A stretch of DNA of 64,000 nucleotides. Source: Haloferax elongans ATCC BAA-1513. GTDB taxonomy: Archaea; Halobacteriota; Halobacteria; Halobacteriales; Haloferacaceae. Position 1 is the stretch's first letter. Each line of letters opens with the position of its first letter. Location of the stretch: assembly GCF_000336755.1 (NCBI RefSeq), contig NZ_AOLK01000021.1, forward strand, positions 188,253 through 252,252, read 5' to 3'. The notes under the pieces are model-generated. The model was not told the origin of the DNA. It worked only from the letters and a program-made list of their open reading frames with translations, and made no database searches. The position numbers and the translations under genes were made by a program. Below, piece by piece: positions 16,019-16,879 of this stretch.

Positions 16019-16103
16019 GCGTGGGTAGCCAAGCCAGGCCAACGGCGCAGCGTTGAGGGCGCTGTCCTGTAGAGGTCCGCCGGTTCAAATCCGGTCCCAC
16101 GCA
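16019..16103 (+). tRNA. tRNA-Leu (anticodon GAG)
   Basis: The 85-base gene folds as a class II tRNA. Acceptor GCGTGGG (16019-16025) pairs with CCCACGC (16096-16102), with discriminator A at 16103. The anticodon stem CAGCG/CGCTG holds the loop TTGAGGG, giving anticodon GAG for CUC and CUU leucine codons. A long variable arm and the T-loop GGTTCAAATCC follow. No intron is present and the CCA is not encoded. Bases 16059-16084 recur exactly at 16241-16266. Confidence 0.96.
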
Positions 16104-16168
16104 TCGCAAGATGCAGGTGATTTCCTACATGGACATCACCCACGCACAATCCTTCCGAACACTACACT

Positions 16169-16195
16169 CCTGAGAGACACCTCTCGGGTTCTTCT
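16169..16195 (+). terminator. Hairpin after tRNA-Leu
   Basis: CCTGAGAG (16169-16176) pairs with CTCTCGGG (16181-16188) around an ACAC loop, followed by TTCTTCT. Its position 65 bases after the tRNA fits a terminator, or it may be one of a series of hairpins in this spacer. Confidence 0.45.
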
Positions 16196-16230: not shown

Positions 16231-16266
16231 GACAGCGACTGCGCTGTCCTGTAGAGGTCCGCCGGT
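16231..16266 (+). repeat. Duplicated fragment of tRNA-Leu
   Basis: Bases 16241-16266 repeat exactly 26 bases of tRNA-Leu(GAG) (16059-16084: the 3' side of the anticodon stem, the variable arm and the start of the T stem). The copy is preceded by GACAGCG, which pairs with CGCTGTC over a four-base loop, imitating the tRNA anticodon stem. It is not a functional tRNA. It could be a relic of integration into the tRNA gene or part of a structured RNA. Confidence 0.7.
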
Positions 16267-16327
16267 GAACAGTCGCCATGTCGAGTGCTCACAGTGCCCG
16301 ACCGCCTGCCCCGGCCGGGGCCGCGAG

Positions 16328-16357: not shown

Positions 16358-16879
16358 ATGGCGAAGTACTCGACGAATCGGGGTGGAGGCGGCTCCGACG
16401 GCGATAGTTGCGAACTCTGCGGCCGAACGACGGGGAAACTCCGGCGCGCGAACGTCGCTGGTGCCGACCTACTCGTCTGTTCTGACTGCGCACCGCACGG
16501 CGACAACCGCCACGCCGACAAGAAGCGCGAGGAGTCGTCGTCCTCTCGTGACTACTCCGAGCAGAACCGCCGCAAGCGCGCCGCCCAACGGACGGCGAAG
16601 ATGTACGACAGCGCGAAGGGCGACTCGAAACACTGGGAAGAAGAAGGGACGAACTACGAGAAAGACCGGCTTCCGTACCTCGTCTCCGGCTACGGCGGCG
16701 TGGTCGAGTCGGCTCGGCAGGATGCTGGCCTCCAACTCGCCGAACTCGCCGACGAACTCGAACTCGACGAGAAGCAACTGCTCGCAATCGAGCAGGGACG
16801 GGCGACGCGAGCCAACATCGGTGGGTCGGTCATTCGCGCGCTCGAAGAACGCCTCGACGTGTCACTCGTCGACGAGTAG
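16358..16879 (+). CDS. mbf1: Multiprotein bridging factor 1 family protein, 173 aa
   Basis: An N-terminal zinc ribbon (CELCG near residue 18 and CSDCA near 42) is joined by a charged, Lys/Arg/Glu-rich linker to a C-terminal Cro-type helix-turn-helix (residues ~115-173, around ARQDAGLQLAELADELELD and LLAIEQGRA). This is the archaeal MBF1 architecture. Archaeal MBF1 has been linked to ribosomes and translation rather than to classical co-activation. The start follows a strong TATA box at leaderless distance. Confidence 0.93.
   Translation: MAKYSTNRGGGGSDGDSCELCGRTTGKLRRANVAGADLLVCSDCAPHGDNRHADKKREESSSSRDYSEQNRRKRAAQRTAKMYDSAKGDSKHWEEEGTNYEKDRLPYLVSGYGGVVESARQDAGLQLAELADELELDEKQLLAIEQGRATRANIGGSVIRALEERLDVSLVDE

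Follow-up and report, generated by a model that had tools for sequence, protein, structure and literature searches.

Directly behind tRNA genes of haloarchaea lie non-coding repeats of about 85-180 nt, which occur one to four in a row and are here termed echo units. In the window (the whole stretch of 64,000 nucleotides of Haloferax elongans DNA that was analysed), a 26-bp copy of part of the tRNA-Leu(GAG) gene is most simply regarded as a truncated echo unit and not as a fresh copy of the tRNA. The explanation considered probable, though with some reserve, is that this copy represents the decayed left end of an echo unit and that such units act in tRNA 3′ maturation.

The copy and its surroundings

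The source of the copy is the tRNA-Leu(GAG) gene identified by ARAGORN at positions 16019-16103 of the forward strand. The window contains two exact occurrences of the 26-mer GCGCTGTCCTGTAGAGGTCCGCCGGT, one within this gene (16059-16084) and the other on the same strand at 16241-16266, as a reading of the sequence alone had claimed. It corresponds to tRNA positions 41-66 of 85 (the last loop base, the 3′ strand of the anticodon stem, the variable arm, the 5′ strand of the T-stem and one T). Zero occurrences are expected by chance, even with three mismatches allowed, and a chance match was ruled out as the source of the copy. The anticodon-stem-like hairpin reported to precede the copy was also recovered, both in the sequence and in the centroid fold: it consists of 7 bp (16231-16248, forward strand; GACAGCG-ACTG-CGCTGTC), with arms at 16231-16237 and 16242-16248 flanking the loop ACTG, and overlaps the start of the copy. 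This stem is retained with one G-U pair in a related genome (G009, the window genome being coded G000). An outer stem around the copy, GCGACTG/CAGTCGC, is not retained in G009 and was dropped.

The 26-mer is followed on the forward strand by nine nucleotides that are not tRNA-derived (GAACAGTCG, 16267-16275); they match part of the intact extended unit in G009 (L013), which reads GAGCAGTCG, the tRNA itself continuing with TCAAATCC. The remnant as a whole (16231-16275) begins 128 nt downstream of the tRNA gene on the same strand. It stops at tRNA position 66 and is without the anti-T-arm, the core hairpin and the T-arm/3′ acceptor tail that characterise the units described below.

Between the tRNA gene and the copy lies a conserved structured trailer (16104-16150, forward strand), composed of a hairpin (GGTGATTTCC/GGACATCACC, 16116-16140) and then CACCCACGCACAAT (16137-16150). 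The latter is a repeat of the end of tRNA-Leu(GAG), CCCACGCA, and therefore offers an alternative partner for the 5′ acceptor strand (GCGTGGGT/ACCCACGC); this pairing would provide the sequence basis of a role in 3′ maturation. The trailer motif (hairpin plus CACCCACGCACAAT, with zero to two mismatches) was found in all 30 tRNA-Leu(GAG) loci of highest similarity and in two others, giving 32 of 38 loci checked, a fraction biased upward because the loci were ranked by similarity. The exact 14-mer CACCCACGCACAAT occurs in most of these 30 loci, and the hairpin stem is preserved across tRNA-Leu(GAG) loci despite base changes. Sequence and fold also indicate a second short hairpin followed by a T-rich stretch (16169-16188, forward strand), the latter being a possible end of the tRNA transcript. 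The intergenic region is bounded by a gene for an HVO_2718-like HTH regulator (16361-16879, forward strand; Pfam PF24250, 9e-103), with other genes nearby encoding an LSm protein, a PurF-like protein and a DUF420 protein. In plasmid records, most of the sequences that match the window DNA are haloarchaeal.

The tRNA-Leu(GAG) locus in related genomes

Comparison with relatives for insertions at this point, as the sequence-only reading had proposed, showed that genomes of the genus do differ by insertions behind tRNA-Leu(GAG). A second copy of the 26-mer (with at most two mismatches) is present in five of the fifteen genus genomes (G000, G006, G008, G009 and G010) and absent from the other ten. 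In G006, G008, G009 and G010 the 26-mer, with one mismatch in G009, is the start of a complete unit, whose 21-nt tail is GTTCAAATCCGGTCCCACGCA. The order of this extended unit is a copy of the anticodon arm and variable arm, a hairpin, an anti-T-arm, a core hairpin and the tRNA’s own T-arm with its 3′ acceptor strand. In all four relatives the copy corresponds to the start of the tRNA 3′ half and is followed by GGTGAG and then by a hairpin with co-varying arms (AATCCGGC/GCCGGATT, AATCCAGC/GCTGGATT, CAGTCGGT/ACCGACTG); past this hairpin come CGAACGTCGAGACGAG..GAGTCTCGGAA, then GTTCAAATCCGGTCCCACGCA and then a second copy of the trailer.

The window aligns to the distal end of the G009 locus, where the flanks are nearly identical and the copy is kept in both genomes. 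Since GAACAGTCG matches GAGCAGTCG of G009 and the flanks align, truncation of a unit is the simplest account of the window copy. The anti-T-arm and compensating core hairpin are present in the four relatives and absent here, which makes the window copy a remnant and not a member of the family; as anti-T-arm, core and tail are all missing, it can be tied to the family only through descent from an extended unit. Having lost core and tail, the window copy itself is probably inactive. In G006 the breakpoint of the duplication falls within a short homology, GGCGCTGTCCTGT, common to the tRNA and its downstream flank, and unequal recombination would fit such a breakpoint.

An extended unit with an anticodon-arm/variable-arm copy was also seen in another family of the order (L033, G049:C23). 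Here the copy follows the variant of its own genome (CCCGTCGGGG; tRNA CCCGTAGGGG), suggesting either that the extended unit is old or that it has been homogenised repeatedly.

Echo units behind haloarchaeal tRNA genes

An echo unit is built from a hairpin, an anti-T-arm (GGATTTGAAC) and a core hairpin whose stems show compensatory changes, and in most cases it closes with the T-arm and 3′ acceptor strand copied from its host tRNA. The extended form found around tRNA-Leu(GAG) in the genus adds the 3′ strand of the anticodon arm, the variable arm and the T-stem. Echo units occur in haloarchaea behind tRNAs of at least thirteen amino acids; they were read, arranged head to tail, behind tRNA-Leu (GAG, TAG, CAG and CAA), Gly, Glu, Arg, Lys, Ala, Val, Met, Pro and Ser. 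Examples include four near-perfect tandem units of about 87 nt behind tRNA-Leu(CAA) (L053, G029) and two identical 121-nt units behind tRNA-Lys (L055), while the window’s own genome carries units behind tRNA-Gly(TCC), Glu(TTC), Ser(CGA), Ala(GGC) and Arg(CCT). Behind the last unit the trailer is clearly duplicated in only about 8-10 of 42 loci, and the proposal that it is always duplicated there was discarded. Past the last unit behind tRNA-Leu(GAG) in G029 (L032, contig C2), several near-identical tandem palindromic repeats were observed (GAGCGGTGAGCGAAGCGAACCGC...).

The spread of the units was assessed with an anti-T/T pattern (GGATTYGAA-N20..50-GTTCRAATCC), using the reversed pattern as a control. 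Matches were obtained in 48 of 59 relatives. In an even sample of the phylum they were found in 41 of 43 genomes of the order versus 1 of 204 others, with the reversed control giving zero throughout. The two remaining sampled haloarchaea have no match to the pattern and ten of the fifteen genus members have no copy at tRNA-Leu(GAG); given this patchy presence, the units are not essential.

A second search employed the core only (patterns AGTCGCGCGCARCG..GAGCACGTCT and KCAGGGAGCGAAC..GTGAGCGACCG, containing no T-arm or tRNA letters) and yielded 50 readable loci. A same-strand tRNA gene lies no more than 800 nt upstream in 43 of these (Arg, Lys, Ser, Val, Leu, Asp, Ala, Pro, Glu, His and Gln), and in 39 of the 43 the last 18 nt of that same tRNA (with at most three mismatches) recur within 60 nt after the core. 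The seven other loci have no detected upstream tRNA, three of them lying in an unrelated repeat of G030. These three (L233, L237 and L240) carry a type-B-like core, CAGGGAGCGAAC..GTGAGCGACCG, in this different, non-tRNA repeat, two of them together with GTGGGACTGAAAGGGGCCGCGGC. Of a larger set of 65 tail copies, 48 agree exactly with the host tRNA over their last 13 nt, and tRNAs of other amino acids gave 0 matches in 2104 comparisons; as these copies had been selected for resembling the host tail, this statistic shows specificity only, the own-tail figure free of such selection being that of the core-only search.

When 17 type-A units are placed in the proposed fold, 98.5% of cells are paired. 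Core-stem cells with double changes number 26, compared with 6.1 in shuffles (0 of 500 as high), and sliding the partners gives a maximum of 3. Because the search pattern itself dictates part of helix 1, independent evidence of covariation comes from helices 2 and 3, in which pairs alternate among GC, AU, CG and UA. Fold stability favours the tRNA-sense strand over its complement by 43:6 for hairpin A and by 38:18 for the core, and many of the pairing deviations are G-U or tandem G-A on the tRNA strand (e.g. GG-GA-GC-GA-AC-GAA-GT-GA-GC-GA-CC). Such asymmetry suggests that one of the strands is constrained, whether in the form of RNA or of single-stranded DNA. At their variable positions, cores from one genome resemble each other more (0.74) than do cores from different genomes (0.61; p=0.016 by permutation, on a small sample), an indication of spread or conversion from one tRNA locus to another. 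The idea of a hammerhead-like core (CUGAUGAG...CGAAAC) was rejected, the core bases being unsuited and Rfam giving no match.

Possible origin and role, and relation to known systems

Echo units would function either as a structured pre-tRNA trailer module or as a non-autonomous hairpin element that uses the T-arm. For the former, which is the preferred reading, the units, being on the same strand, would lie in the tRNA transcript and fold as RNA. Their extra copies of the tRNA 3′ end could compete for the 5′ acceptor strand or for tRNase Z, and competition of this kind would modulate or buffer 3′ maturation of the tRNA. Recombination between the repeated tRNA tails would allow units to grow and shrink, and cores would spread among the tRNA loci of one genome. 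The strand-specific folding is not decisive for a role as RNA, because a DNA element in single-stranded form should show it too.

It is conceivable, although held with low confidence, that haloarchaea possess a previously unrecognised class of tRNA-addressed hairpin elements, in which the anti-T-arm guide would read the site, the copy of the host 3′ end would keep the gene whole and tandem arrays would be built, the window then representing a late stage of decay. A rival proposal, thought somewhat unlikely, is that the units are REP- or MITE-like non-autonomous hairpin DNA elements mobilised in single-stranded form, whose anti-T-arm guide would pair with the T-arm target, hence the match to the host tRNA. 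Their patchy presence, tandem arrays and within-genome homogeneity, the same cores at tRNAs of different amino acids, the conserved order of guide, hairpin and target and the strand asymmetry of folding are all in keeping with this proposal. However, no transposase has been assigned to echo units, viruses and plasmids are almost without them (one IMG/VR contig per pattern; none in plasmids) and they are nearly always found behind tRNAs and on one strand.

The sequence-only reading had raised integrase attachment while doubting it, as the copy is internal and nothing large lies between it and the tRNA gene. Those doubts were well placed: the copy covers positions 41-66 of 85 only and the spacer measures 137 nt. 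In the corresponding explanation, a tyrosine integrase acting at the anticodon loop of tRNA-Leu(GAG) left the tRNA 3′ half downstream (attR), after which the element was deleted and the scar decayed to 26 bp. Tyrosine integrases do use haloarchaeal tRNA-Leu genes, and this part of the idea stood. In G057 (L046 and L047; C30, about 79.2-100.3 kb) an element of about 20 kb occupies tRNA-Leu(GAG), with an integrase-like frame adjoining the tRNA and, at its far side, a tRNA fragment that spans the part between anticodon stem and 3′ end. In G022 (L045; C14:342700-345400) a decayed 2.2-kb element at tRNA-Leu(TAG) has a broken integrase-like frame and a tRNA 3′ fragment; the frames in both genomes were recognised by eye. 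Archaeal integrases are described as favouring the 3′ parts of tRNAs, including the anticodon loop (PMC8371274), and the second copy of G009, which starts with the anticodon stem, takes in the whole loop (AGCGTTGAGGGCGCTG). The application to the window fared worse: no element, integrase or second boundary was found at tRNA-Leu(GAG) in the fifteen genus genomes or in the spacer itself, and the copy stops within the T-arm instead of reaching the tRNA 3′ end, running on into sequence common to the hairpin repeat behind many tRNAs. The trailer occurs both before and after the copy, and the G006 breakpoint would be explained by unequal recombination. Core hairpins common to different tRNAs would not be expected of a scar, which also leaves the anti-T-arm and the arrays unexplained, and this explanation is judged unlikely. 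Because integrase scars start at the anticodon stem, like the extended copy of G009, an old scar may nonetheless have supplied the extended form. At tRNA-Glu(TTC) of G009 (L069; C19:695500-700300), a decayed 3.6-kb element with an integrase-like fragment and an ATPase-like frame has an echo unit at both ends.

Retention of the 26-mer as a functional tRNA-mimic RNA (an anticodon-arm decoy) would suit its exact identity in the window and the survival of the preceding stem through a G-U change in G009, but is very improbable, as no more than 13 nt remain exact in the orthologous distal copy of G009 and such a copy is absent from 10 of 15 relatives.

The family of echo units is apparently new, a grading that applies to the family, the window copy alone being a remnant. 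No description of such units was found in the open-access papers searched, an earlier one in subscription papers being possible, and the parts seen of a paper on the haloarchaeal splicing endonuclease (BHB) contained no tRNA-Leu trailer substrate. No Rfam family besides tRNA matches, and BLAST against plasmid and phage records gave no useful match, although the low-complexity filter may hide some. If confirmed, the tRNA genes of a whole archaeal order would be trailed by a repeated, structured unit that copies their tails, with consequences for the 3′ maturation of tRNAs, for the way in which tRNA loci attract and tolerate repeats and for the erroneous identification of integration scars and tRNA fragments.

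Attachment sites in archaeal tRNA genes have been reviewed (PMC8371274) and tRNA fragments have been described as products of integration (PMC9897764). Like the attR fragments of these reports, echo units place partial tRNA 3′ sequence downstream of an intact gene; unlike them, they are structured tandem units of about 85-180 nt with cores shared across tRNAs, an anti-T-arm and no element in between. With REP/BIME palindromes and MITEs they share the character of short non-coding palindromic repeats, many per genome, with strand-specific hairpins, but they are tied to tRNA genes in one orientation and end in host tRNA sequence. Integron attC sites and the ends of IS200/IS605 elements may be comparable, being likewise single-strand hairpins with a short target-like sequence at the foot. 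Echo units would differ from these in that their target part follows the local tRNA and in that no integron integrase or Y1 transposase is assigned to them. Casposon-like insertion at tRNA 3′ ends would entail a target duplication of fixed length and a Cas1-like casposase; the repeats seen here vary in length. Structured pre-tRNA trailers and tRNA-derived RNAs resemble echo units in their position behind the tRNA and in sense-strand folding, whereas echo units are repeated, lineage-specific and equipped with copies of the tRNA tail.
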